Source: a virus
Virus record (IMG/VR): IMGVR_UViG_3300028836_000012
Coordinates: 1 to 20,336 of that record
Direction: 5' to 3' (one strand)
DNA length: 20,336 bases
Below are positions 1 to 11,184 of this stretch, in pieces. The first letter of the stretch is position 1, and each line of letters starts with the position of its first letter. A program made the position numbers and the translations under genes. The notes beneath the pieces were generated by a model. The model was given only the letters and a program-made list of their open reading frames with translations. It was not told the DNA's origin and made no database searches.

Positions 1-77
1 AAAAATAGTTTAGCATCATTAAATAGTTTTAATATCTCTTTATTTGTAAAGTCATTTGTAGTTATAAGATGTTGCAT
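1..77 (-). CDS. pyrB: Aspartate carbamoyltransferase, N-terminal fragment (host gene, cut by the window edge)
   Basis: Read on the minus strand from an ATG at 77-75, the frame stays open to the window edge and gives 25 residues beginning MQHLITTNDFTNKEI. The pattern M-x-HLI-T-x-DF-x-x-x-EI-x-x-LF is how the catalytic chain of aspartate carbamoyltransferase starts in Campylobacterota; Bacillus-type chains start similarly (MKHL...). The enzyme makes carbamoyl aspartate, the first committed step of pyrimidine synthesis, in the cytoplasm. A ribosome binding site (AAGGA on the minus strand, near 84-88) lies about 7 bases before the ATG, and a TATAAT box lies at 105-100. Only the start is visible, so the catalytic motifs cannot be checked. 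It is divergent to all phage genes, which suggests it is chromosomal flank rather than phage. The assignment rests on a short N-terminal pattern, so it is good but not certain. Confidence 0.7.
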   Translation of the reverse strand, partial: MQHLITTNDFTNKEILKLFNDAKLF

Positions 78-94
78 GGATCGTCCTTAGTTTG

Positions 95-109
95 ATGATA
101 TTATATCAT
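95..109. promoter_or_regulatory. Symmetrical -10 region, possible bidirectional promoter
   Basis: The 15 bases form a near-perfect palindrome with 7-base arms (ATGATAT / ATATCAT) around one T. On the minus strand this gives a perfect TATAAT at 105-100, well placed for pyrB; 17 bases further upstream is a weak -35 (GTGTCA, 128-123). On the plus strand the same bases give TATTAT at 99-104, which would start transcription near 111-113. That is just before the closing helix of the structured RNA. Symmetrical -10 elements are known to fire in both directions. The pyrB direction is fairly safe; the plus direction is inference. Confidence 0.5.
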
Positions 110-112
110 ATT

Positions 113-666
113 CTTTCAACAATGACACTATCGCTTAGAATACGTCTGGTGATATGTCTATCTTTATGATTCACTCACACCAGTATAAACTAAAAGAGAT
201 TAAGGCAAACGTGTCCCGATAAGCTGCTGATTGATGTTAGATAAGCGGTTATAGTCATCTCAATACCAGAGTGCATTGCTATAACCTTACGACCTCTATA
301 CTGGTTAATAACCTTGGAGTGTTTTAGAATCTAGCGTAGAGTTGCAGAAGCCTTGCACTTATTACTAAGTGGTGCTGAACTCTAAGTAGAATAATTGTGA
401 TTGATTCTACCAACTGATAAATTGCCGAGGCTGTTTATACGAATGTAAATCTCTCTACTTGATTAACTTCAGGTAGGGATTTCTTTACTCTGAATTCATA
501 CCTCAACTGATAACCGAATATAAAAAGAGCAACACCTGCTTGGCTGTTAAAAAAGAGTTTTACTCTAAAGGAGCAACGCGACGCTAAAGTAGAGAGATGA
601 ACGATTATTTACAACGTAAATGATGTTCGGGCAAACGATAGTGCGGCAGTCATTGAATAGATAAAG
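113..666 (+). ncRNA. Large structured non-coding RNA candidate (about 540 nt)
   Basis: The stretch has no convincing reading frame but many complementary segments that nest. The ends pair: 120-126 with 649-655 and 127-133 with 636-642, 14 Watson-Crick pairs interrupted only by a 6-base bulge (643-648). A perfect 12-bp helix joins 449-460 to 587-598. Directly next to it is a 13-bp hairpin, 599-628, with one bulged G and a 3-base loop. Further helices are 179-187/297-305 enclosing 247-254/279-286, and 325-331/403-409 enclosing 337-343/378-384 and 356-360/367-371. Bulge bases 644-648 could also pair with 423-427. The T606-G622 pair is a wobble on the plus strand but an A-C mismatch on the other, a small argument for plus-strand transcription. 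Size and phage context resemble the ROOL and GOLLD giant phage-associated RNAs, but I do not recognise the family. It is not tmRNA or RNase P RNA as far as I can see. Exact ends are uncertain. Confidence 0.65.
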
Positions 667-697
667 TAACGTTATACACCGTAGACTAAACTAGAGA

Positions 698-706
698 TGT
701 TATAAT
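698..706 (+). promoter_or_regulatory. Extended -10 promoter for a leaderless HTH gene
   Basis: TGTTATAAT is a perfect extended -10 element (TGn plus TATAAT at 701-706). No -35 match is seen at the usual distance. Only seven bases separate the box from the ATG at 714, so the transcript should begin at or next to the start codon. There is no ribosome binding site in between, which fits a leaderless mRNA. It would drive the whole early gene row. Confidence 0.6.
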
Positions 707-732
707 ACAACTTATGATTATTAAATATAACA
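698..732. promoter_or_regulatory. Possible operator: inverted repeat over the early promoter
   Basis: TGTTATA (698-704) and TATAACA (726-732) are exact reverse complements, 21 bases apart. They straddle the -10 box and the start codon of the HTH gene. GTTATA occurs again at 671-676. An HTH protein binding here would block its own promoter. The sites are AT-rich and short, so chance is a real alternative. Confidence 0.25.
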
Positions 733-911
733 ACATCAAAGCAGAATTTAAACGACTAGGCTTGACTAATAAACGAGTAGCAGGTATTTTAAATATTTCT
801 GTTCAGGGATTAGATAAACGAATTAAACAAGATAAGCCATCAATACATCTTATTACTTATGCTTTAACTAAACATTTCTCTGAAGAAGAGCAAAACCTAG
901 TTAAAGAATGA
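714..911 (+). CDS. Small helix-turn-helix DNA-binding protein
   Basis: The 65-residue protein is basic and has one predicted HTH: residues around 17-38 (LTNKRVAGILNISVQGLDKR) fit the helix, turn, recognition-helix pattern of phage Cro/CI-like and MerR-like small regulators. It is first in the rightward early operon. The ATG follows the -10 box by seven bases with no ribosome binding site, as in the leaderless cI message of lambda made from PRM. That suggests an expression mode suited to a regulator. Likely role: repressor or activator of the phage early region, possibly its own gene through the inverted repeat around 698-732. The stop overlaps the next start (ATGA). No dimerisation domain is visible, so it is shorter than a full CI repressor. 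Function is inferred from fold and position only. Confidence 0.6.
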   Translation: MIIKYNNIKAEFKRLGLTNKRVAGILNISVQGLDKRIKQDKPSIHLITYALTKHFSEEEQNLVKE

Positions 912-1081
912 AGATACCTAAAAATATTAAGATTTATCGATTACTAAAAAAAGAAGATAACAAATTAACTGCAGCGGAAACAGGATTTTTAGAACAATTA
1001 TACGGAATGTATAATGCAGGTAAACATCAATTAATTAGTAAAAAACAACACTCTTGGGCTGACAAAATACTATCAAAATGA
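908..1081 (+). CDS. Small phage protein of unknown function (57 aa)
   Basis: An ATG overlapping the previous stop (ATGA) opens a 57-residue frame that ends in another ATGA overlap, so it fits the coupled early operon exactly. The protein is lysine-rich and probably helical. Its second half (LTAAETGFLEQLY...LISKKQHSWADKI) resembles a short pattern seen in many phage early proteins, in which a helix is followed by LS-x-x-Q-x-x-W-x-x-x-I. I do not know its function. Weak similarity to the tails of some DNA-replication or recombination accessory proteins is my recollection only. Confidence 0.55.
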   Translation: MKIPKNIKIYRLLKKEDNKLTAAETGFLEQLYGMYNAGKHQLISKKQHSWADKILSK

Positions 1082-1254
1082 GCGATTTAGAATATCATAT
1101 ACAACACTCTAAAGAACAATGCCAACAATCAGTTAAAGCATTAAAAATATTAATTACTAAGTCTATGGATGTAGATGATGAATCAATTAGTAAACATTAT
1201 CTTGAAAGCGCATTACAATTATGCGATCAATTATTAAGAGAGCCTTTAAAATGA
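1078..1254 (+). CDS. Small phage protein of unknown function (58 aa)
   Basis: The frame begins with an ATG in a 4-base overlap with the gene before and ends in a 4-base overlap with the VRR-NUC gene. The 58 residues are acidic-to-neutral and almost entirely predicted helical (for example HIQHSKEQCQQSVKALKIL and SKHYLESALQLCDQLLRE). This suggests a small helical hairpin or dimer. Two cysteines, around residues 13 and 49, do not form a metal-binding pattern. No family is recognised. The exact tiling between coupled neighbours is the main evidence that it is real. Confidence 0.5.
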   Translation: MSDLEYHIQHSKEQCQQSVKALKILITKSMDVDDESISKHYLESALQLCDQLLREPLK

Positions 1255-1598
1255 AATCAGTAGAACACGAAGTACAAAAAGCAATTTGTCAATACTTAGA
1301 CGCAAGAGGAGTATGCTTTTGGGCTGTTCCAAATGGCGGCAATAGAAATATTATTACAGCAAAGATATTAAAATCAGAAGGGGTACAAGCCGGCGTACCA
1401 GATATTACAATTATTCACGACGGTTTATATTATGGCCTAGAGGTTAAAAAACCTAAAACAACAACTAAAGCAGGAGTATTAAGTTTAACACAAAAGGCAA
1501 TGATTGAACGTATTGAAAAAGCAGGAGGATCAGTAGCTGTTGTATATTCAGTACAAGACGTTATTGAAGCGTGTATTGATTGGAACGTCCGAAAGTGA
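1251..1598 (+). CDS. VRR-NUC domain nuclease
   Basis: This 115-residue protein is a stand-alone VRR-NUC domain, a PD-(D/E)xK-type nuclease. Visible signature: an N-terminal EHEVQ, then PNGG at 27-30, the catalytic GVPD ending at D51, E64-V-K66 as the ExK element, and Q81 in the following helix. Phage VRR-NUC proteins are Holliday-junction or structure-specific endonucleases thought to resolve branched DNA during recombination and before packaging. The start is taken at 1251, not the upstream in-frame 1221. 1251 gives the ATGA overlap seen at neighbouring junctions, and the family normally starts just before this glutamate motif. The gene sits directly before a YbcO nuclease and NinB, so the three probably act together on recombination intermediates. 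All catalytic residues appear intact. Confidence 0.85.
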   Translation: MKSVEHEVQKAICQYLDARGVCFWAVPNGGNRNIITAKILKSEGVQAGVPDITIIHDGLYYGLEVKKPKTTTKAGVLSLTQKAMIERIEKAGGSVAVVYSVQDVIEACIDWNVRK

Positions 1599-1876
1599 GT
1601 AAGATAACAAAAAGCGCTAGAGGCCAATCTTGTACTGTACGTTTAGACGAATGCTATGGCGGCCCTGATAACGAAACAGTTGTATTTGCTCATCTATGTA
1701 ACGGTTCTATGGGAATGAAGGCTATGGATATTCATGGCGCTTATTGTTGTGCAAGTTGTCATGATGTATTAGACGGAAGAAAACCTAGTGATTATAAAAA
1801 AGAAGAATTACTATTGAGTCATCTAATGGGTATGAAACGAACACAAGAGATTTTAGTTGGCAAAGGTTTAATGTGA
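1595..1876 (+). CDS. YbcO-like (DUF1364) metal-dependent nuclease
   Basis: The 93-residue product matches the YbcO family of lambdoid (pro)phages. It has the opening ARG-x-x-C-x-VR (C13), C20, an AH pair (H33), a GxGxK-like stretch and the closing HGAYCCASCHDxLD with C52, C55 and H56. These would bind a metal ion in an HNH-like fold. The family is described as a putative nuclease of the recombination region. The GTG at 1595 is chosen because it gives a GTGA overlap with the VRR-NUC stop and a length equal to the E. coli protein. The TTG at 1580 would add five residues. The stop again overlaps a possible GTG. Placed between VRR-NUC and NinB, it recalls the nin-type region of lambdoid phages, although the virion genes here are T7-like. 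Confidence 0.85.
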   Translation: MSKITKSARGQSCTVRLDECYGGPDNETVVFAHLCNGSMGMKAMDIHGAYCCASCHDVLDGRKPSDYKKEELLLSHLMGMKRTQEILVGKGLM

Positions 1877-1974
1877 ATGTATTAGATAAGCTTTATTCGT
1901 TGATTAAATCATTAAAAGAGTTCGAGGATTCTGTTGTTAAAAGCTTCAAAGGTAAAAATGAAAAGAGTAATTGA
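1873..1974 (+). CDS. Possible small protein (33 aa)
   Basis: A GTG overlapping the ybcO-like stop (GTGA) opens a 33-residue frame, VNVLDKLYSLIKSLKEFEDS and onward, that fills the gap before the NinB gene and overlaps it by 17 bases. It is an amphipathic, lysine-rich helix. Its start follows the same overlap rule as neighbours, but it is very short and could simply let ribosomes carry on to NinB. No family is recognised. Confidence 0.35.
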   Translation: MNVLDKLYSLIKSLKEFEDSVVKSFKGKNEKSN

Positions 1975-2383
1975 ACGCAAGAAAGAAAAACGTAATATTA
2001 TCGAATCAATGATAGTATCGTTCTTTAGCGAGCACCCAGAAGAGGATAAAGCTATTATAGAGATTAAACAAGATAAAGACAATAGATCAACGAAGCAAAA
2101 TCGGTTATATTGGGAATGGGTGAGTATATTGAGCTCAGAGACCGGATATCATAAAGATGAAATGCACATGATATTAGTTGATAAATTCTTAGGTTCAATT
2201 CAAATAACAACTAAGAAGGGTAAATCAATATCATCATTAAGATCAACTAAAGATTTAAAGTTAGGCGAATTTAAGGATTATCTAGAACAAATTGATATAT
2301 TCGCAGCAGGGTATAATATAAATTTACCACGACCTGATGATTTGTATTATGAATCAATGGGTTACACAAAAGGAACACAATGA
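1958..2383 (+). CDS. NinB/Orf-like recombination mediator
   Basis: The 141-residue protein carries the NinB hallmark RSTKQNRLYW at 43-52 (lambda NinB has RSLDQNRKLW). In the second half it has STKDLKLGEFKDYLEQIDIFA, matching the lambda stretch with VGEFAELLELIQAF. Lambda NinB (Orf) binds single-stranded DNA and SSB and helps load recombinase, replacing host RecFOR. The N-terminus (residues 1-12) is unusually lysine- and arginine-rich. The ATG at 1958 is preferred because AAAGG sits just upstream; an upstream TTG at 1934 is possible but has no better site. It overlaps the next gene by ATGA. Overall identity with lambda is low, so this is a family-level call. Confidence 0.75.
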   Translation: MKRVIERKKEKRNIIESMIVSFFSEHPEEDKAIIEIKQDKDNRSTKQNRLYWEWVSILSSETGYHKDEMHMILVDKFLGSIQITTKKGKSISSLRSTKDLKLGEFKDYLEQIDIFAAGYNINLPRPDDLYYESMGYTKGTQ

Positions 2384-2604
2384 ATGACTTACAACAATTT
2401 TTAATAATGATGACTAAAGATGTAGGTAATGGTATTAGCAATAAGATCATCATAGAAGGTGACGAATATACATACGTTTCATTCTTCCAAAGAGGTATGA
2501 GTGATCCAGTATGTGAGTGTGTAAATAGAACAAACCAGGAAGTTACATTCATGTTTGATTCAACAGACGGATCATTCAAAGGCATAGAGGGCGCAATAGG
2601 ATAA
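2380..2604 (+). CDS. Phage protein of unknown function (74 aa)
   Basis: The 74-residue frame starts in an ATGA overlap with NinB and its TAA overlaps the ATG of the terminase small subunit (TAATG). After a short helix the sequence alternates beta-strand-like segments (KIIIEGDEYTYVSFFQRG, CECVNRTNQEVTFMFDST), suggesting a small beta-rich fold. The two cysteines (CEC) are adjacent but there is no second pair for zinc. It is acidic. I recognise no family. Its position between recombination and packaging genes gives no clear hint. Confidence 0.6.
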   Translation: MNDLQQFLIMMTKDVGNGISNKIIIEGDEYTYVSFFQRGMSDPVCECVNRTNQEVTFMFDSTDGSFKGIEGAIG

Positions 2605-2999
2605 TGGACAATTTACCACTAGTAATAGGCGCAGGACTAACTAATAATCAGATCAAGTTTATCAATGCGTATACTACTAGCTATTGCAACGTCAGCAAGG
2701 CTTGTATAAAAGCAAACATAGCAAGAAACACTTTTTATAGATGGCAATTAGATAGTGACAGCTTTGCAGAAGCAGTAGAACAAGCTAAAGAAGGGCTTAG
2801 AGATAGATGGGAAGATGAGATAGCTAGGCACGTATTTGAAGACCGTAATCCTATTGTATTAAATAAGTTTGCACCAAGTGTATTAAAAGACAGAGGGTAT
2901 GCGGATATTAAAGACATTAACTTAACTGGTAAGCTTGATAATACTAATGAAGTAATAGTTACTATCATTGATGGTGGGGACGTAGAAGATTACGAATGA
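2604..2999 (+). CDS. terS: Terminase small subunit
   Basis: The 131-residue protein lies immediately before the large terminase and overlaps it by ATGA. Residues about 12-50 form an HTH typical of small terminases: LTNNQIKFINAY, NVSKAC-x-x-A-x-I-ARNTFYRW, then a helix ending in a conserved F-AEAVEQAKE. The middle (WEDEIARHVFEDRNPIVLNKFAPSVL) matches the phBC6A51/KpsF-like helix that usually precedes the oligomerisation region. The C-terminus is acidic. TerS recognises the phage DNA and hands it to TerL at the portal. The call rests on position, size and the HTH. Which DNA site it binds cannot be told from here. Confidence 0.8.
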   Translation: MDNLPLVIGAGLTNNQIKFINAYTTSYCNVSKACIKANIARNTFYRWQLDSDSFAEAVEQAKEGLRDRWEDEIARHVFEDRNPIVLNKFAPSVLKDRGYADIKDINLTGKLDNTNEVIVTIIDGGDVEDYE

Positions 3000-4252
3000 A
3001 GGTTGATATAAAACTCACTAAAAAGTTCCAACCTTTCTTAGAACAACATAGATATAAGATTGCTTATGGCGGGAGAGGGTCAGGCAAGTCATGGTCTATT
3101 GCACAACTACTTGTGCTCGCAGCATGGAAGAACCCTGTAAGAATACTATGCTCGCGCGAGATACAACGATCTATTCAAGACTCAGTATTGCAGCTACTAG
3201 GTGATACGATTGAACGTATGGGGTTAGGTGGTTACTTTGAAGTACAAAAGACTCAGATATTAGGCACTAACGGTAGCAGGTTCATCTTTGAGGGGATGCG
3301 CTCTAATATCACTAAGATTAAATCTATGGAAGGCTTAGATATAGTATGGGTCGAAGAGGCAGAAAGTGTTACCTACACAAGTTGGGAGACTTTAATACCT
3401 ACTTTAAGAAAGGACGGCTCCGAGATCTGGTGTAGTTTCAATCCTAATGATGAAATGGATAATACCTACGATCGCTTTGTGCTCAACCCCCCAGCAGACT
3501 CATACGTGGTCAAGGTCAACTATAACGACAATCCCTGGTTTCCTAAAGAACTCGAAGCTGAGAGACTAGAACTTAAAAAGAAGAACCTAGACTTATACAA
3601 CCATGTCTGGGAAGGTGAAGTCTTATCTAATAGAGATGGCGCTTACTACGCTAAGTTTATTGACGACGGCCAGATCATGAGCTTTCCTGTAGAACCTAAT
3701 ATTCCTGTTGATACTTATTGGGACTTAGGTGTTGCGGATGCGACTTCTATATGGTTTGTGCAGCAAGTTGGTATGGAGCTGCGTATTGTTTATGCTTATG
3801 AGAATCAAGGTGAAGGCTTAGGATTCTATATTAACTATCTACATGACTGGCGAGTGAAGAATCAAGCTGTGATGGGCAGACACTATGCTCCACATGATAT
3901 TGCAGTAAGAGAATTAGGTACAGGCAAGTCACGACTAGAGACAGCACGTAAGTTAGGCATTAACTTCTTAGTAGTGCCAAGGCTATCAGTTGAGGATGGT
4001 ATTCATGCTGCTAGAGCAATACTACCTAAGTGTTACTTTGAGAAGACAGGTACTAAAGATGGATTAAATGCTCTAAGACGATACCGTAAAGAGTTTGATG
4101 AGAAGAAAGGTGTATATAAATCACACCCCCTTCATGACTGGTCTAGCCACTTCGCGGACGCTTTTAGATACTTTGCTATTGCATTTAGAGAGAATAGACC
4201 AGAAGCAGGAAAGAGACAGCCGATGGCAAACACTGACTGGTTGAATGGCTGA
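2996..4252 (+). CDS. terL: Terminase large subunit (ATPase and nuclease)
   Basis: The 418-residue packaging motor has an intact N-terminal ATPase: Walker A GGRGSGKS at 25-32, Walker B IVWVEEAE at 116-123, and the coupling motif SFNPND at 147-152. The C-terminal RNase H-like nuclease has acidic residues at D243 and D248 (YWDLGVADAT) and a final D388 in SSHFADAFRYF. This is the Terminase_3 / PBSX-like arrangement. With TerS it cuts concatemers and pumps DNA through the portal. Size is normal. It starts in an ATGA overlap with TerS, and its stop overlaps the next ATG by eight bases. The terminase type does not by itself settle whether packaging is by pac, cos or terminal repeats. Confidence 0.95.
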   Translation: MKVDIKLTKKFQPFLEQHRYKIAYGGRGSGKSWSIAQLLVLAAWKNPVRILCSREIQRSIQDSVLQLLGDTIERMGLGGYFEVQKTQILGTNGSRFIFEGMRSNITKIKSMEGLDIVWVEEAESVTYTSWETLIPTLRKDGSEIWCSFNPNDEMDNTYDRFVLNPPADSYVVKVNYNDNPWFPKELEAERLELKKKNLDLYNHVWEGEVLSNRDGAYYAKFIDDGQIMSFPVEPNIPVDTYWDLGVADATSIWFVQQVGMELRIVYAYENQGEGLGFYINYLHDWRVKNQAVMGRHYAPHDIAVRELGTGKSRLETARKLGINFLVVPRLSVEDGIHAARAILPKCYFEKTGTKDGLNALRRYRKEFDEKKGVYKSHPLHDWSSHFADAFRYFAIAFRENRPEAGKRQPMANTDWLNG

Positions 4253-4682
4253 GTTAGTAGAGAATGAGATTGATTGGTTTGTTGTATTTGTAGATCACGG
4301 CCAGTTTCACTTTTGGGATATTGGCACAACATCAGGTTTTAGACATTGCTTTGCTTTTAGATGGGACGGTTTTAATTGGGTTATGATAGACCCTCTCGGG
4401 TGCTGGCTAGAGATACAAGTTATGCCGTACACACATGAAGACAATGTGCCACAAATGATGGTAGAATTAGGCCATAAGATGATATATGTAAGGAAGAGTA
4501 GGGAGAATAAATTTATTTTCCGGGGAATGATGACATGCGTTAATATAATAAAACATCTAATTGGGGTTAAAGCCTTTTGGGTGATTACACCAAGACAATT
4601 ATACAATTATTTACAGGGGAAAGATTATGGGCGGATTATTCAGTTCACCAAAAGCACCACCACCAAGCGAGTCTCAAGTTAA
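4245..4682 (+). CDS. Protein of unknown function after terminase (145 aa)
   Basis: The frame starts with an ATG inside the terL stop (8-base overlap) and is rich in aromatic residues: W11, W24, W40 and W45, with HCFAFRWDGFNWVMIDPLG at about 34-52. A His-Cys pair followed by beta strands and a conserved-looking DPLG recalls small papain-like proteins found beside terminases in some podoviruses. I cannot show a complete catalytic set, so no enzyme is claimed. The last 56 bases overlap the next gene in another frame. The basic C-terminal tail (KSTTTKRVSS) lies entirely in that overlap, so the overlap decides the tail's composition. Confidence 0.6.
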   Translation: MAELVENEIDWFVVFVDHGQFHFWDIGTTSGFRHCFAFRWDGFNWVMIDPLGCWLEIQVMPYTHEDNVPQMMVELGHKMIYVRKSRENKFIFRGMMTCVNIIKHLIGVKAFWVITPRQLYNYLQGKDYGRIIQFTKSTTTKRVSS

Positions 4683-4830
4683 AGCGGAGGCTCTTAGAGA
4701 TCGTGAGACACGTAAAGAAGAGTTTGTTAAAGCTAAAAGAAGTTCATCTGGTATCAGACGTAGGCGTGGTAGATCACTACTTATCTCAGATAAAGAGACA
4801 GGTATCGGATCTAGCAGCACACTAGGTTAA
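4627..4830 (+). CDS. Small basic phage protein, virion-associated candidate (67 aa)
   Basis: The 67-residue protein begins MGGLFSSPKAPPPSES and has an arginine cluster with a SLLISD strand near residues 44-54. Many podoviruses encode a similar short protein (glycine start, proline run, then a GRAS-type arginine-rich motif) just upstream of the portal. Function is unknown. A strong ribosome binding site (AGGGGA) stands about six bases before the ATG, although the start lies inside the preceding gene. This supports independent initiation. A longer frame at 4577-4825 in the same region is judged to be a shadow. Confidence 0.65.
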   Translation: MGGLFSSPKAPPPSESQVKAEALRDRETRKEEFVKAKRSSSGIRRRRGRSLLISDKETGIGSSSTLG

Positions 4831-4834
4831 GATT

Positions 4835-5029
4835 ATGGGGTTTGCATTTAAAAAAAGCAGAAATGCTGTAAAGAAATTAGCAAGTGATGGTACGCCAGCA
4901 GGCGCAGCATTAATTAAGGGTTATCATAAATCTGGTGGTGGTGTTGGTGCTGTCAAGAAAGCAGCAGGCGCTGCTAGAAAGGTAAGGAAGGGTGTTAAAG
5001 AACGCACATTACTTGATGTAAACAATTAA
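4835..5029 (+). CDS. Small lysine-rich protein of unknown function (64 aa)
   Basis: The 64 residues are strongly basic and glycine/alanine-rich, with a central flexible SGGGVGAVKKAAGAARK stretch (about 34-50). This composition suits a DNA-binding or disordered virion protein. It lies four bases after the previous stop and nine before the portal start, so it belongs to the head operon. No family is recognised and there is no signal peptide or membrane segment. Confidence 0.5.
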   Translation: MGFAFKKSRNAVKKLASDGTPAGAALIKGYHKSGGGVGAVKKAAGAARKVRKGVKERTLLDVNN

Positions 5030-5038
5030 AAGGTAAAC

Positions 5039-6598
5039 ATGCCAAACTATAGCAAGAGTAATCAAGCTGTCGCAACTATCATTAAAAGATACGAGACGGC
5101 TAAAGCACACAGATCATCATGGGAACAACACTGGAAAGAGTGTTATGAATACGCACTACCACAACGTGAAGTGTTTAATCAACACACACCAGGCTCGAAA
5201 AAGACTACAAGGATCTATGACTCTACAGCATTGATTGCTACACAAAGATTTGCATCAAGATTACAGTCAACATTAGTACCACCATTTAAGAAGTGGGCGA
5301 AGTTGTCAGCAGGTTCAGCAGTTCCAAAGGATCAACAGACTAAGATTGATAAGCAGCTAGAGAAAGAGTCAGACACTCTATTCTCGTATATCAATAACTC
5401 TAATTTAGCTACAGAAGCTAATGAAGCGTTTCTTGATCTTGCTGTAGGTACAGGCGCATTACTATTAGAAGAGGGAGAGGGTGAGGATCTATTAAGATTC
5501 AAAGCAGTTCCACTTAAACAACTTATTATTGAAGATGGCCCAGGCGGTACAGTCGAGAATGTATTTAGAGATCATTCAGTGGCAGTCAGAGATATTGAAC
5601 GTATCTGGCCAAAGGGCAAAGCATCAGAAGCAGTTAAGAAGATGATGCAAGAGAAGCCAGACCATTTGGTTCATATTATTGAAGCCACTATCTGGGATGA
5701 CAAAAAGAAAAACTACACTTTCGTGGTTATTGAATCAGCTACTAAGCATGTTGTATTTGAAGATTACTTTGAGCAGAGCCCTTGGATTGTGTTCAGATGG
5801 TCTAAGGTAGCAGGCGAGCGTTATGGACGTGGGCCTATCATGACAGCATTACCAGACATTAAGACAGCTAATGAAGTTGTTAAGTTTGTATTGAAGAATG
5901 CTGAGAAAGAAATTGCAGGTGTTTACACAGCAGTAGATGATGGCGTACTTAATCCTTGGACTATTAGCATTGCACCTGGTTCAGTTGTTCCAGTAGGACA
6001 GCAGGGTTCATTGCAGCCGTTAGTATCAGGTGGTAACTTTAATATATCAGAGTTAATCTTAGGAGATCTAAGAGATAACATTCGTAAAGCCTTATATCAC
6101 GATCAATTAGGCCCAGTATCTGGCCCAACTAAGTCAGCTACTGAGATTGGTATCAGACAACAAGAACTAATGTCAGACATTGGATCATCGTTCGGCAGAT
6201 TACAGATTGAGTTTATTAATAAGCTAATTAAACGTGCTTACTATATCCTTGAGAAAGCTAAGAAGGTTGCGCCTATTAAGGTTGGTGGCCAAGTTGTAGA
6301 GATTAAAGTTATTTCACCACTTGCTCAACAGCAAGATATGGATGAAGTTAATAAGCTTGCACAGTTCGTACAGTTTGCAGGCATGGTAGGCCCAGAAGCA
6401 ATGCAAGTAGGTTTAGATCTTGAAGCATTCCCTGAGCATATTGCTAAACTATTAGGTGTTGATAAGTCATTGATCAGAGATGCTGAAGCTAGGGCTGAGT
6501 TAAAGCAGCAGATGCAACAAGCAGCACAGCAACAACAGGTGGCAGAAGCAGCAATGCAGAATCCAGAGATGGCACAGAAACTTGCAGAGGGCCAATGA
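5039..6598 (+). CDS. Portal (head-to-tail connector) protein
   Basis: The 519-residue protein is of the podovirus connector family (Head-tail_con). The N-terminus has the usual WEQHWKECYEYALPQRE region (about 28-45), followed by RIYDSTALIATQRFASRLQSTLVPP. The middle has the PWIVFRWSKVAGERYGRGPIM segment and then GPTKSATEIGIRQQELMSDIGSSFGRLQIE, a stem-helix hallmark of T7 gp8-type portals. The C-terminus is glutamine/alanine-rich (QQMQQAAQQQQ), as in many such portals. Twelve copies form the ring through which TerL packages DNA. Length matches the family (T7: 536). It starts after AAAAGG and overlaps the next gene by ATGA. Confidence 0.93.
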   Translation: MPNYSKSNQAVATIIKRYETAKAHRSSWEQHWKECYEYALPQREVFNQHTPGSKKTTRIYDSTALIATQRFASRLQSTLVPPFKKWAKLSAGSAVPKDQQTKIDKQLEKESDTLFSYINNSNLATEANEAFLDLAVGTGALLLEEGEGEDLLRFKAVPLKQLIIEDGPGGTVENVFRDHSVAVRDIERIWPKGKASEAVKKMMQEKPDHLVHIIEATIWDDKKKNYTFVVIESATKHVVFEDYFEQSPWIVFRWSKVAGERYGRGPIMTALPDIKTANEVVKFVLKNAEKEIAGVYTAVDDGVLNPWTISIAPGSVVPVGQQGSLQPLVSGGNFNISELILGDLRDNIRKALYHDQLGPVSGPTKSATEIGIRQQELMSDIGSSFGRLQIEFINKLIKRAYYILEKAKKVAPIKVGGQVVEIKVISPLAQQQDMDEVNKLAQFVQFAGMVGPEAMQVGLDLEAFPEHIAKLLGVDKSLIRDAEARAELKQQMQQAAQQQQVAEAAMQNPEMAQKLAEGQ

Positions 6599-6828
6599 TA
6601 GACAACCAGAAAGATTTTGATGCTCTAATCGCAAAAGTATTCAAGAGCAAAGACGGCAAGAAGGTTCTTGAGTGGTTAGATGATAGATACATCAAGTCAG
6701 CGGTATGTGTTCCTGGGCAAGCAGAAGGCCAAGGCTATTATCGTGAAGGTCAGAACTCAGTTGTAAGGATGTTTAAGTCCTGCATATTGAGACAAGAGAG
6801 TGGTAAATATAACAATCGTGGAGACTAG
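6595..6828 (+). CDS. Bbp19-like small phage protein
   Basis: The 77-residue product matches the short Bbp19-type phage family. An N-terminal FDALIAKVF-x-x-x-DGKKVLEWL is followed by a mid-region glycine-rich turn and the characteristic REGQNSVVRMFKSCI helix near residues 49-63. These proteins are found next to portal and scaffold genes in podoviruses, but their role is not known to me. It is coupled to the portal by an ATGA overlap and ends two bases before the scaffold start, so it is made with the head proteins. Confidence 0.7.
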   Translation: MIDNQKDFDALIAKVFKSKDGKKVLEWLDDRYIKSAVCVPGQAEGQGYYREGQNSVVRMFKSCILRQESGKYNNRGD

Positions 6829-6830
6829 TT

Positions 6831-7595
6831 ATGGAAGAAGAAACATTATTATCTGAGGCGGCAGCACCAGAAGCAACAACAGAATCAACAGATACAACTA
6901 CAGAAGTATCAACAGAAGTACCATCAGCAGATGATTCCGCTTGGTATTTATCAGAAGGCGTAGCAGGACAGGGAGAAGCTCCTGATTGGTTTAAAGCTGG
7001 TAAGTACGCTACTATTGCAGACCAAGCACAAGCATACAACGGCTTAGAGTCTAAGTTAGGCTCTTTCACTGGCGCACCTAAAGATGGATATGAGACAGTT
7101 ATCCCTGAAGGAATGAATGTAGAGATCCCTTCAGACGATCCTCTAATGACAAACTTCAATGAGTGGGCGCAAGCAGCAGGACTATCTCAAGATGCTCATA
7201 GTGAGTTGCTTGGTGTATATCTAAATGGCATGGCAGGCGAACAACCAGACATGGAAGCAGAGATGAAACGCATTGGCCCAGACGCTAACCAAAGAATACA
7301 AGACATGGTTCAATGGGGTAAAGGCAATCTTGATGAGAATGAGTTTGAGACGTTACAATCAATGGCAACCACAGCAGAAGGCTTCCAGTTACTAGAAAGA
7401 ATGAAGTCATTCTCTAGAGAGACGCAAGTTTCAGCTCCTGATACAGCGCAACCAGTTAATACGGTTACTAAAGAAGCTTTATACGATCTAATGAAGGATG
7501 AAAGATATCAATCATCCCCTGCATATAGAGATGAAGTTAAGAATAAGTTTGATAACTTCTTTGGTAAAGAACCTGCAAAAACAATTAGACAGTAA
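6831..7595 (+). CDS. Capsid assembly scaffolding protein
   Basis: Position between portal and major capsid protein, size (254 residues) and composition all fit a T7 gp9-type scaffold. The first 40 residues are acidic and Thr/Glu/Ala-rich (a disordered region). A WYLSEGVAGQGEAPDWFKAGKY segment follows, the DWFKxxKY element often seen in podovirus scaffolds. The rest is helical, and the C-terminus ends with a basic helix (EVKNKFDNFF and onward) suited to binding the capsid. The scaffold directs procapsid assembly and then leaves. GGAG lies upstream of the ATG. The sequence is variable in this family, so the call leans on context. Confidence 0.85.
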   Translation: MEEETLLSEAAAPEATTESTDTTTEVSTEVPSADDSAWYLSEGVAGQGEAPDWFKAGKYATIADQAQAYNGLESKLGSFTGAPKDGYETVIPEGMNVEIPSDDPLMTNFNEWAQAAGLSQDAHSELLGVYLNGMAGEQPDMEAEMKRIGPDANQRIQDMVQWGKGNLDENEFETLQSMATTAEGFQLLERMKSFSRETQVSAPDTAQPVNTVTKEALYDLMKDERYQSSPAYRDEVKNKFDNFFGKEPAKTIRQ

Positions 7596-7621
7596 ATTAA
7601 TAACATTTAGTAGTGGCTTTT

Positions 7622-7630
7622 TGTTATAAT
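7622..7630 (+). promoter_or_regulatory. Extended -10 promoter upstream of the capsid gene
   Basis: TGTTATAAT repeats exactly the extended -10 seen at 698-706, and it follows a T-rich stretch (CTTTTTG), the type of upstream element used instead of a -35 in Campylobacterota. Transcription would start near 7637, just before the long hairpin and about 120 bases ahead of the capsid gene. It would give the capsid gene its own supply of message. Confidence 0.5.
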
Positions 7631-7653
7631 CAAACCACAGATACCCGTTAATC

Positions 7654-7709
7654 GGCCTGTATGAGTAGTTTAAGTGCCTCTAAAGCACTAGATTCAACCC
7701 ATATAGGTC
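7654..7709 (+). promoter_or_regulatory. Long imperfect RNA hairpin in the capsid leader
   Basis: Bases 7654-7663 pair with 7700-7709 over ten pairs, two of them G-U, so the fold is better on the plus strand. Inside is a second stem, AGTGC/GCACT (7673-7677/7685-7689), with a 7-base loop. Two stems split by an irregular internal loop is the layout of T7 RNase III processing sites. A rival pairing exists (7691-7697 with 7711-7717). A shorter hairpin precedes it (ACAG 7636-7639 with CTGT 7657-7660, plus CCG/CGG inside). Candidate RNA-processing or translation-control element. Confidence 0.45.
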
Positions 7710-7757
7710 ACTTGAATCGAGAAAGTAAGATAATTTTTTAATTCATAGGAGATTAAC

Positions 7758-8591
7758 ATGTCAGTTAATTTAAGTTCTTCGGCATCAGCTCAGTTTGACG
7801 CAGAAGTAAAACATGCCTTCGCAGGCGCAGGTAAATTACGTGATACAGTACGAGTTCGTACAGGCGTAGTAGGTGATACACATAACTTCCGTACTATGGG
7901 CAAAGGCACAGCTGCTGCTCGTGGTACTACTCAATCAGACGTTACAGCAATGGACGTTTCACATGCTAAAGTTGCATGTACTCTTGGCAACTATGTTGCA
8001 CCTGAGTACACAGACATCTTTGATGCTGCTGAAGTAAACTTTGACGAACGAACTGAACTAGCAGGTACTATTGCTGGTGCTTTGGGCCGTAGAGTTGACC
8101 AACTAATCATCGATGCTTTAGAGGCTGTGACTTCACCACCAGCTATCGCCAATGGTGGTACTAACATGACTTTAGGTAAGATCACAGAAGCTGCATCAAA
8201 GTTAAATGATGCTGGTGTTCCAATGGACGGGCGCGTTATGGTTTGTTCTGCTGCTGCAATCGAGAAGATGATGAATGATACAACCATCACTTCTGCTGAT
8301 TACAACGCCCTACGAGTATTGATGTCAGGTGAAGTAAACTCTTTCATGGGCTTTGAGTGGAAGATGATTGAAACTCGTTCAGAAGGTGGCTTAGTAATTG
8401 CTTCTAACATCCGATCTTGTTGGGCATACCATAAATCAGCTGTAGGTTTAGCTGTAGGTATTGATGTTTCTACTGAAGTAAACTACGTTCCTGAGAAGGT
8501 TTCATGGTTGTCATTAGGTAAAGTTAAGGCTGGTGCGGTAGTTGTTGATAAGACAGGTACAGTACAAGTTGATATTGACGAGACTGCGTAA
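7758..8591 (+). CDS. Major capsid protein
   Basis: The 277-residue protein is the HK97-fold shell protein of podoviruses. It has no cleaved-delta-domain signature and begins MSVNLSSSASAQFDAEVKHAF, then RVRTGVVGDTHNFRTMGKGTA and GALGRRVDQLIIDAL, which is typical of the phage capsid family used with this portal type. It is small compared with T7 gp10A (345). A strong ribosome binding site (AGGAGA) lies eight bases before the ATG, the best in the window. The gene has its own upstream promoter and a strong terminator after it, as expected for the most abundant virion protein. Codon choice (for example GTT, GCT, CGT) looks more optimised than in neighbours. Confidence 0.9.
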   Translation: MSVNLSSSASAQFDAEVKHAFAGAGKLRDTVRVRTGVVGDTHNFRTMGKGTAAARGTTQSDVTAMDVSHAKVACTLGNYVAPEYTDIFDAAEVNFDERTELAGTIAGALGRRVDQLIIDALEAVTSPPAIANGGTNMTLGKITEAASKLNDAGVPMDGRVMVCSAAAIEKMMNDTTITSADYNALRVLMSGEVNSFMGFEWKMIETRSEGGLVIASNIRSCWAYHKSAVGLAVGIDVSTEVNYVPEKVSWLSLGKVKAGAVVVDKTGTVQVDIDETA

Positions 8592-8609
8592 GTAAGTTGA
8601 GTTAAAACT

Positions 8610-8635
8610 GGCCCTTCTCACGAGGGGTCTTTCTT
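8610..8635 (+). terminator. Rho-independent terminator after the capsid gene
   Basis: GGCCCTT (8610-8616) pairs with AGGGGTC (8623-8629) in seven pairs, including two G-U, around a six-base loop, and is followed by TTTCTT. It lies 18 bases after the capsid stop and 21 before the tail adaptor. T7 has its terminator in the same place, after gene 10, where partial termination lowers tail gene expression. Confidence 0.8.
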
Positions 8636-8656
8636 AAATCAATTTAGGAAGGTAAT

Positions 8657-9235
8657 ATGTCAGCCGTAAAGAACTACACAGATATTGATATTGCGTCTAA
8701 TGCTTTATTGTTAATAGGTGAGAACACAATTGCTTCATTTACCGAGGACTCCGTAGCTGCTCTTATTGCGGCCAACTTATATCACGCTACATTTGAAAGT
8801 TTACTAACACTTCATCCTTGGCGCTTTGCATCTAATAAAGCAACACTGTCAAGACTAACAGCCAAACCTACTAACCAGTGGAAGTACGCATATCAATTGC
8901 CTACTGACTTCTTAGTGGCCCAACATATTGATAAAGGTAACGATAACTACCAGATCTATGCTGACAAGCTGTATTCAGATAATGAGACTATGATCCTGGA
9001 CTATACATACAAACCAGATGAGTCGTTCTTGCCTGCTTACTTTACTGAAGCACTAGAACTGAGACTAGCATCTGTATTTGCTATCCCTATTACTGAATCG
9101 GCAACCAAGGGTGAGTATTATGGTGGACTAGCTGACAAACAACTACAAAGAGCCAAGACTGTTGATTCTCAATCTACACCTTCAATTGGCCCGTCAGCCT
9201 TTGAGGGATCAAGATTAATTAATTCGAGGTACTAA
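8657..9235 (+). CDS. Tail tubular protein A-like adaptor (T7 gp11-like)
   Basis: The 192-residue protein matches T7 gp11 in length (196) and pattern. It has an opening DIASNALLLIGENTIASF segment, then W/R-rich LLTLHPWRFASNKATL (near 51-66), then WKYAYQLPTDFL and a final helical region with ELRLASVFA and TKGEYYGGLADKQLQRAK. The adaptor ring sits under the portal and joins it to the nozzle. AGGAAGG is a very good ribosome binding site. Its stop overlaps the next ATG (TAATG). It is downstream of the terminator, so it probably depends on read-through. Confidence 0.88.
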   Translation: MSAVKNYTDIDIASNALLLIGENTIASFTEDSVAALIAANLYHATFESLLTLHPWRFASNKATLSRLTAKPTNQWKYAYQLPTDFLVAQHIDKGNDNYQIYADKLYSDNETMILDYTYKPDESFLPAYFTEALELRLASVFAIPITESATKGEYYGGLADKQLQRAKTVDSQSTPSIGPSAFEGSRLINSRY

Positions 9236-11184
9236 TGGCTAAAGCAACCGCATCCCAGTCATCGTTTATTGCTGGAGAGCTTGACCCAAGACTAGCAGCA
9301 AGGATTGATGTAGAGAGTTATGCTAAAGGTGCTGAGACATTAACTAATGTTATTTGTCTTGGACAGGGTGGCGTTAAGCGCAGACCAGGCATGAAGTACA
9401 TTGATACTATTACAGAGTCAGCAGTGCGCTTAGTTTCGTTTGAATTTAATATTACACAGACATACTTGCTTGTCTTTGTTGATTCTAAGATGCGTGTTTA
9501 CATGGATGGTGTATTACAGACCAACATCAACGGAACTGGCAATGATTATCTAACAGTTCCTTATAATGCTGCAGAGATCAAAGAGATTGTATGGACTCAG
9601 AGCGCTGATACATTAATCATTTGTCATAACGACTACGTTCCTAGAAAGATTGTACGTGGGTCAACTCACTCAACTTGGACGATCTCTAACATGACGTTCA
9701 GTTATTACCCAACGTATGACTTCAATAGAGACTATGACGCAGGTACATTTAGCTGCGGTAGTTCTAATCCAGTAGTGGGCGATACAACTACGATCACTTG
9801 TTCAGGTGCTAGTCCAGTTACTACTGAGCATGTTGGCGGTATGTTTGAAGGCAATGGCGGTGTAGTAAGAATCACAGCATATAACTCTTCCACATCATTT
9901 AGTGGCACAGTATTACAAGAATTTATAAACAACAACAGCATCCCTGGCATTGACGCTTCATTAGAAGAGCCAGTATGGTCATCAGCACATGGTTATCCAG
10001 GCTCAGTAACATTCCATGAATCAAGAATGTGGTTGTCTAACTCTACCTCTCGCCCACAAACATTATGGGGGTCAGCAACAGGTGACTTCTTTAACTTTGA
10101 TCGTGGGTTTGGTGATGACGCAGATGCAATTGACATTACTATGGACACAGACCAGGTTAATGCGATCTATCATTTAGTATCAGGAAGACACTTACAGATC
10201 TTTACATCTGGCGGTGAGTTCTTTATTCCAGATCGTCCTATCAAGCCTGCTTCTGTTGGCGTATTACGTCAAACAAGATTTGGTGTACTAAAAGGCGTTC
10301 CACCTATTAACGTGGATGGTGCGACAATGTTTATACAAAGGAACGGCAAGCAGGTTCGTGAGTATTTATTTACTTATACCGAAAACTCGTACGTCTCCAC
10401 TGAGGTGAATTTGCTTGCCCCTCATCTTATTAACTCTCCAGTTGCTATGGCAGCACAGACTGGCGATATTGATAACGAAGGAAACTACTTATATATTGTT
10501 AATGCAGATGGTACAGTAGCAGTGTTTATTACAAACAGGGCTGAATCAGTTACTGCTTGGACAAGGCTAACAACAGCTGGTGAGATTAAAGATGTTGCAG
10601 AGGTAGAGGACATTATCTACTTCCATGTGAAGAGAACGATTAACGGATCTACTGTTTATCATATTGAAGCGTTAGATAACAATTACTACACAGACTCATC
10701 AGTACAAGTGACTAACAGCCCAGCATCGGCAACAGTTGCAGGCCTTGGTCATCTTAATGGTGAAGAGTGTAGGGTGAGAGCCGATGGTTCAGTTATGGAT
10801 AAAGCAACACCAGCATCAGGATCTATTACTTTAGCAAGAACAGCAACAGATATAGAGGTTGGGTTGAACTTTGACTTAGAGGTTAAGACAATGCCAGTTA
10901 ATGTTGGATTCCAGACTGGCCCTATCAATGTAAACAAACGTAGAATACTAAGGGTGTCGGCCCAGCTTTATCAGGCAAACGGTATTAAAATAAACGGCAA
11001 AGCAATCACAGACAAAGGTTTTGGCATAGGTGTATTAGGTGTAGCACCAACAGGATTCACAGGTATTAAGACTGTGCCAATGTTAGGCTATTCTAAAACA
11101 ACACAAGTAACAGTTACACAATCAGATCCAGCACCTATGACATTATTAGGGTTGACTCTAGAAATACAGGCACAAGGCGGTTAA
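9235..11184 (+). CDS. Tail nozzle protein (T7 gp12-like tail tubular protein B)
   Basis: The 649-residue protein has the widespread podovirus nozzle start SSFIAGELDPRLAARIDVE with QGGVKRRPGMKYID at about 45-58. It then has a VSFEFN-x-x-QTYLLVF strand pair and long beta-rich blades including ESRMWLSNSTSRPQTLWGS and TRFGVLKGVPPINVDGATMF. In T7, six copies form the channel at the tail tip. Length is between that of T7 gp12 (794) and shorter nozzle proteins. It lies directly after the adaptor and two bases before the first ejection protein. No separate receptor-binding or hydrolase domain is seen. Confidence 0.88.
   Translation: MAKATASQSSFIAGELDPRLAARIDVESYAKGAETLTNVICLGQGGVKRRPGMKYIDTITESAVRLVSFEFNITQTYLLVFVDSKMRVYMDGVLQTNINGTGNDYLTVPYNAAEIKEIVWTQSADTLIICHNDYVPRKIVRGSTHSTWTISNMTFSYYPTYDFNRDYDAGTFSCGSSNPVVGDTTTITCSGASPVTTEHVGGMFEGNGGVVRITAYNSSTSFSGTVLQEFINNNSIPGIDASLEEPVWSSAHGYPGSVTFHESRMWLSNSTSRPQTLWGSATGDFFNFDRGFGDDADAIDITMDTDQVNAIYHLVSGRHLQIFTSGGEFFIPDRPIKPASVGVLRQTRFGVLKGVPPINVDGATMFIQRNGKQVREYLFTYTENSYVSTEVNLLAPHLINSPVAMAAQTGDIDNEGNYLYIVNADGTVAVFITNRAESVTAWTRLTTAGEIKDVAEVEDIIYFHVKRTINGSTVYHIEALDNNYYTDSSVQVTNSPASATVAGLGHLNGEECRVRADGSVMDKATPASGSITLARTATDIEVGLNFDLEVKTMPVNVGFQTGPINVNKRRILRVSAQLYQANGIKINGKAITDKGFGIGVLGVAPTGFTGIKTVPMLGYSKTTQVTVTQSDPAPMTLLGLTLEIQAQGG

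Follow-up and report, generated by a model that had tools for sequence, protein, structure and literature searches.

The general view of double-stranded DNA phages is that proteins initiate their replication. The small antisense RNAs of phage immunity regions, such as P4 CI RNA and P1 c4 RNA, are short molecules acting on an early transcript. In the literature that we searched, RNA-started phage replication was found only for the maintenance of mycobacterial prophages: cluster A phages without RepA (RedRock, Alma and LadyBird) use a noncoding RNA region for prophage replication in place of the replication protein, with relatives that use a protein initiator (PMC7157519). In the plasmid ColE1, RNA II starts 555 bp upstream of the origin, and RNA I starts 445 bp upstream and runs in the opposite direction (PMC11012335). 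GOLLD and ROOL are large ornate noncoding RNAs of phages and prophages (PMC12286853). Here we describe a previously unlisted RNA family, with ~90 viral sequences in marine tailed phages. The reading that we prefer, at a probability of roughly 0.5, is that this RNA serves as an antisense-controlled, RNA-based phage replication origin built like the ColE1 RNA II/RNA I pair.

The window, i.e., the whole stretch of DNA analysed, is an IMG/VR record of 20,336 bases. A large structured RNA of ~540 nt had been predicted at positions 113-666, and its existence was confirmed by homologues in 89 further IMG/VR records and by strong covariation. A terminase-based search yielded 80 loci, three of which (L002, L029 and L027) contain the RNA region; the motif GGTGATATGTCT-N-TTCACTCACACC, taken from that region, gave more homologues together with further motifs, and a profile of the core recognises 90 records including the window. 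The INPHARED phages gave chance-level matches only, and the PLSDB plasmids gave no match. When 84,980 prokaryote genomes were scanned with a pattern, one chance match was returned, in a Sulfurovum sequence. The letters of the motif were not found in any relevant paper in a literature search. The elements of the RNA in the window are as follows.

120-133, plus strand: 5' strand of the end helix, with partners 636-642 and 649-655; specific to the window phage (and L002).
146-183, plus strand: signature hairpin CTGGTG-AUAU-GU..AC-UCA-CACCAG, with pairs 146-151/178-183, 156-157/173-174 and 160-162/168-170 (alignment A2).
235-336, plus strand: covarying long-range helix 235-242/329-336, whose closing U-G pair is invariant; it encloses an insert of variable length.
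337-384, plus strand: core helix 337-342/379-384 with the inner helix 356-360/367-371 (helices 1 and 2 of alignment A1, with independent matches).
386-410, plus strand: core hairpin 386-390/406-410, with the strongest covariation (A1 helix 3).
448-481, plus strand: local hairpin 448-459/470-481, AAUCUC..GGGAUU, in which a U-G pair is invariant (A1 helix 4).
549-565, plus strand: A-run followed by a short hairpin (AAAAAAGAGUUUUACUC); both recur in the family, with differing stem sequences.
599-628, plus strand: 13-bp hairpin of the original prediction, one of several interchangeable hairpins at this place in relatives.

Alignment A1 covers the 3' core in 24 distinct sequences (four helices, 22 pairs). 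In this alignment 99.2% of the cells are paired and 15 of the 22 pairs carry two-sided compensatory changes; the covariation score was reached by none of 500 shuffles, and pairing fell below 50% once the partner strand was slid by one base. Helix 3 (386-390/406-410) is 100% paired and changed on both sides in all five of its pairs. Alignment A2, which covers the 11 pairs of the signature hairpin, has 99.6% of its cells paired and two-sided changes in 5 pairs. For the long-range helix 235-242/329-336, one example pair occurs as AU in 14 sequences, UA in 3, GC in 2 and CG in 1, and the U-G pair is present in 20/20. Thirty-five later matches (22 distinct) that lay outside model building were 100% paired, with 7 pairs changed on both sides, although their alignment was fitted to the model and is therefore biased towards the structure. 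The plus strand, favoured in the original prediction, is also favoured by the energy of alignment folding (-111.6 kcal/mol for the plus strand vs -95.7 kcal/mol for the minus strand), by the 171 G-U vs 35 A-C cells of the alignment and by the invariant U-G pairs. As judged from these alignments, a structured plus-strand RNA is conserved in the family. In the signature hairpin, both strands of the internal loop (152-159 and 170-177 in the window) are invariant across the family, and this invariance suggests a tertiary or protein-binding RNA motif.

That there is no RNA at all, and that the helices are inverted repeats of a DNA element or arose by chance, is scarcely conceivable. The folding energy of the single sequence is indeed unremarkable (z of -1.9 for the plus strand and -2.6 for the minus strand of the window region) and is weak evidence when taken alone; the decisive data are comparative. 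These data, with 99-100% pairing and compensatory changes, a collapse of pairing on a one-base slide and conserved U-G wobbles, speak against a DNA element or chance.

Every helix named in the original prediction was found at its place in the window, but two of the three that it had put forward as key, the 12-bp helix and the end helix, are not conserved in the family. In the end helix, CAATGACACTATCG at 120-133 pairs with CGATAGT at 636-642 and GTCATTG at 649-655; among the relatives, L002 alone has this pairing at a level above chance. In the window, the 12-bp helix 449-460/587-598 is perfect; elsewhere it exceeds the chance level only in L002, which is near-identical, and, in weaker versions, in L112 and L088. 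Of 400 dinucleotide shuffles made from 113-666, five (~1%) contained a perfect Watson-Crick helix of at least 12 bp, and such a helix is therefore uncommon yet not decisive. In each of the 26 members measured, the 5' strand of the helix 449-460/587-598 forms part of a local hairpin (9-14 bp), and in the window the hairpin 448-459/470-481 competes with this helix. The third helix, the hairpin at 599-628, does fold, with a probability of 0.85-0.87 for its outer pairs, but the stem beyond these requires a bulge.

The original prediction recognised no known RNA family, and a search of Rfam 15 with the window and its relatives, at gathering and relaxed thresholds, likewise gave only chance matches and no family; one of these, NsiR1, falls twice on the conserved 448-481 hairpin. 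The kinship with GOLLD and ROOL that had been considered found no support, as neither model matched at either threshold and ARAGORN detected no tRNA and no tmRNA in the window, whereas GOLLD often lies near tRNA genes. The RNA could still be an ornate one of this kind that assembles into an RNA particle or binds to some target in the host and takes no direct part in replication, as its size, phage setting, extensive conserved structure and invariant loops would allow. We consider this unlikely: there is no Rfam match to GOLLD, ROOL, OLE or HEARO, tRNA genes are absent beside the RNA in the window, and the link to antisense control and to the exclusion of an initiator gene is foreign to GOLLD and ROOL.

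The limits of the element, placed at 113 and 666, proved incomplete on the 5' side, where the locus of the relatives reaches further and includes a sense promoter and an antisense unit. By consensus matching, 48 of 50 non-redundant loci have a sense -10 box, in most of them at a distance of 126-168 nt from the core on its left side; TTGACA-N16-TATAAT and TTGACC-N17-TATGAT are the best sense promoters in relatives, and a transcript of ~500-650 nt is predicted. In the convergent antisense promoter of the relatives, commonly TTGCCA-N16-TATAAT, the -10 box stands 40-54 nt to the left of the core, and by the same matching the promoter is accompanied by a terminator (hairpin and T-tract) in 46/50 non-redundant loci. 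This terminator lies 61-73 nt past the predicted start; the predicted antisense RNA, 61-73 nt in length, would cover the 5' end of the long RNA. The antisense TATAAT is kept in 81 of the 82 records with enough upstream sequence, and a -35 box of at least 4/6 in 65. In L027 (2340-2430), the sole outlier among the 50 non-redundant loci, the antisense -10 box is absent; transcription of the RNA may begin there at a promoter that immediately precedes the core. The surroundings of the RNA in the window are as follows.

1-77, minus strand: host-like start of a pyrB gene, 25 codons with the ATG at 77, running off the window; translation MQHLITTNDFTNKEILKLFNDAKLF.
86-90, no strand: approximate junction of pyrB-like DNA with the phage; the corresponding place in L002 has further phage sequence to its left.
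100-128, minus strand: antisense promoter, with -10 box TATAAT at 105-100, -35 box GTGTCA at 128-123 and a spacer of 17; faces pyrB.
701-706, plus strand: -10 box TATAAT of the HTH gene promoter, 7 nt before the ATG; the spacing is alike in relatives.
714-911, plus strand: small Cro/repressor-like HTH protein of 65 aa, adjoining the RNA in nearly all records.
1251-2999, plus strand: VRR-NUC nuclease, YbcO nuclease, NinB and terminase small subunit (Pfam), in the order found in relatives.

In the window, the 5' control module (sense promoter and antisense terminator) is missing because the pyrB-like DNA ends at about base 86. Positions 1205-11186 of L002 correspond to window 86-10068 at 99.8% identity, and the left flank of L002 carries leftward phage genes, not pyrB. 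Searches for other copies of the pyrB junction found none. The pyrB-like DNA could stand in place of the module through integration or through a chimeric contig; both are possible, given a single copy of the junction and RNA-bearing records in which no integrase is seen. At 1-105 the antisense promoter of the phage has its -10 box right beside the pyrB-like DNA, and a phage promoter would thus drive pyrB. In a comparison within the Campylobacterota, the N-terminal 25 residues of the window PyrB were at most 76% identical to PyrB-length frames, and the pyrB leader is resembled by the leader in one genome of this phylum; the PyrB identity suggests a Campylobacterota host for the window phage. 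A search for prophages with the RNA model in 397 Campylobacterota genomes, a set that includes no positive-control genome, returned nothing.

The small HTH gene lies directly downstream of the RNA in 88 of the 90 records. Its product is predicted by AlphaFold2 with a pLDDT of 85 and with HTH helices; HTH_3 was found in 12 of 25 members, and the nearest PDB matches, which are non-significant, include Aca1 and lambda-repressor-like proteins. As the -10 box lies 7 nt before the ATG, the HTH mRNA is probably leaderless. In another reading, the leftward early operon would start at the antisense promoter and be attenuated at the terminator, and the RNA would be a long 5' regulatory region of the HTH operon. 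The antisense unit does read towards the leftward early genes and end at a terminator, and the RNA does precede the HTH gene, but in the relatives displayed a -10 box belonging to the HTH gene stands only a few bases ahead of the start codon, so that the gene would not need the RNA as a leader, and in L002 a promoter-like sequence seen by eye stands directly before the leftward genes. We therefore regard a leader or attenuator as very unlikely.

The rightward block downstream of the RNA in the window contains no O or P genes. The leftward genes include those for SSB and a Sak-like annealing protein, and several small early proteins have no known family. Across the family the RNA stays with the early gene block while the terminases vary between 36 and 100% identity. 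A packaging RNA of the phi29 pRNA type was rejected: the RNA occurs with terminases only 36-41% identical to that of the window, and it is not recognisable in L007 despite a 92% identical terminase.

In terminase relatives without the RNA, the same slot is filled by genes for a CI-like repressor, RusA, an O-like initiator and a small partner protein. The O-like initiator of L026 (1645-2457) matches a PHROG replication initiation protein with an E-value of 1.6e-32 and carries HTH_36, a Pfam domain that scored above the cut-off only in RNA-less records. In L026, L037, L045, L049 and L050, this lambda-type CI-O-P region stands upstream of YbcO-NinB-terminase just as the RNA does, in phages that are otherwise similar; the difference is that these have a protein initiator and a small partner protein in place of the RNA, with CI present and, in L026, an integrase. 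Neither an O-like initiator nor a CI-like repressor was found in any of the 70 RNA-bearing records in which YbcO is visible, whereas all 13 RNA-less records showing the region have an O-like initiator, 6 of them with CI as well. Thirteen more RNA-less records have no RNA and no initiator, and most of these apparently end before the region; L007 is the single one among them in which the region is visible. Motifs served to gather the RNA-bearing records and terminase the RNA-less ones, so that the counts lack phylogenetic independence. With Pfam, an integrase was found in no RNA-bearing record and only in the record of L026, and DnaB in no record examined. The listed frames of two near-complete RNA-bearing genomes, G438 (40.7 kb) and G437 (36.4 kb), contain no recognisable polymerase, helicase, primase, initiator or integrase; the replication genes recognised among them are those for SSB and annealing proteins only, and inspection of the listed frames brought no partition genes to notice. 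Three RNA-bearing records (L084, L086 and L114; 8432-8662 in L086) have a 77-codon frame similar to the small partner protein encoded behind the O-like initiator in RNA-less relatives.

An RNA with a predicted antisense RNA, in the slot of the initiator and with no initiator present, is best explained as an RNA-based origin, although the step from genomic location to replication function is one that we infer. This reading is favoured by the covariation, the antisense unit, the replacement of CI and O, the absence of DnaB and integrase, the lack of any other recognised replication gene in G437 and G438, the tie between the RNA and the early block, and the precedents of ColE1 and the mycobacterial prophage origins. 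Several observations count against it. L007, with a terminase 92% identical to that of the window, keeps the HTH gene and the same early block, with neither O nor a recognisable RNA; L027 has the RNA and lacks the antisense unit; a long poly-G hybrid site as in RNA II was not seen in the RNA; and small early proteins of no known family are present. The mycobacteriophage RNA origin serves the prophage and not lytic growth (PMC7157519). Separately, L007 has at 2072-2744 a different noncoding region of 670 nt, with an inverted promoter/terminator module and an HNH endonuclease gene beside it; this region has no convincing match to the RNA model and a weak fold.

As the RNA also replaces CI, the loss of O could be coincidental. 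The main rival takes the long RNA and the antisense RNA as an immunity or lysis-lysogeny switch replacing CI, with replication carried out through an unrecognised gene or by the host. The position of the RNA between divergent early genes, in the slot of CI and beside a Cro-like HTH gene, would suit such a switch, as would the predicted antisense unit, a small antisense RNA in a phage immunity region like P4 CI RNA and P1 c4 RNA. However, the dominant feature here is a large conserved structured RNA, and known immunity RNAs being short, a switch leaves the large core unexplained; it also leaves unexplained the constant absence of O with the RNA, and as no integrase or partition gene was recognised, lysogeny itself is unproven. 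We hold a switch in place of an origin to be rather improbable, but the RNA could be both.

If the RNA is an origin, a long RNA (~500-650 nt) would be transcribed and folded, would hybridise with the template or recruit the host replisome, and would act as the primer from which host enzymes synthesise DNA. How often this occurs would be set by the antisense RNA together with the HTH protein encoded next to the RNA. At a later stage, replication would depend on recombination, with the phage SSB, single-strand annealing protein, NinB, YbcO and VRR-NUC in support. The predicted layout is close to the ColE1 geometry: a long structured RNA of similar length, a convergent antisense promoter inside its 5' part, a short antisense RNA predicted to end at a terminator near the sense start, and a small regulatory protein gene nearby. 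No known initiator protein was found in 70/70 RNA-bearing records, which do have small genes of no known family. The convergent antisense unit over the 5' end, found in relatives by consensus, is lost in the window. ColE1 differs in that its RNAs have no sequence match here, the Rfam RNA I model and PLSDB included; the antisense RNA of the phages is shorter (61-73 nt), the structure is different, the carriers are tailed phages, the nearby protein is an HTH protein and not Rom, and the priming role is a proposal. The cluster A origins lie beside parABS and serve prophage maintenance in Actinobacteria, lytic growth being normal without them, and neither a conserved structure nor an antisense unit was found described in the sections consulted (PMC7157519). 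An origin based on DnaA boxes was rejected. DnaA boxes of epsilonproteobacteria have a TTCAC core (PMC5043019) to which the invariant TTCACTCACA is similar, but it is a single imperfect site in a hairpin whose other arm is also invariant; the GC skew is uninformative because gene orientation switches at the same place.

The broader proposal, to which we give somewhat less than even odds, is that large structured phage RNAs of a new class would do the replication job of an initiator protein under antisense-RNA control, in a broad group of marine tailed phages that swap terminase types around the RNA. If true, it would be a clean natural replacement of an initiator gene by a conserved structured RNA, in ~90 phage sequences. 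The locus is a DNA segment of ~0.7 kb suited to an origin assay, and the RNA offers structural studies a new large target. For marine bacteria, in which genetic tools are few, the locus might also be used as a plasmid origin.

Two observations concern other genes of these phages. The terminase large-subunit match of L016 (2199-3815) falls into two segments (88% and 94% identity) with a span longer than usual, which suggests an insertion or a frame disruption. In the RNA-bearing phage G018 (L122/L123), positions 14904-21110 form one reading frame of 2068 codons among the structural genes.
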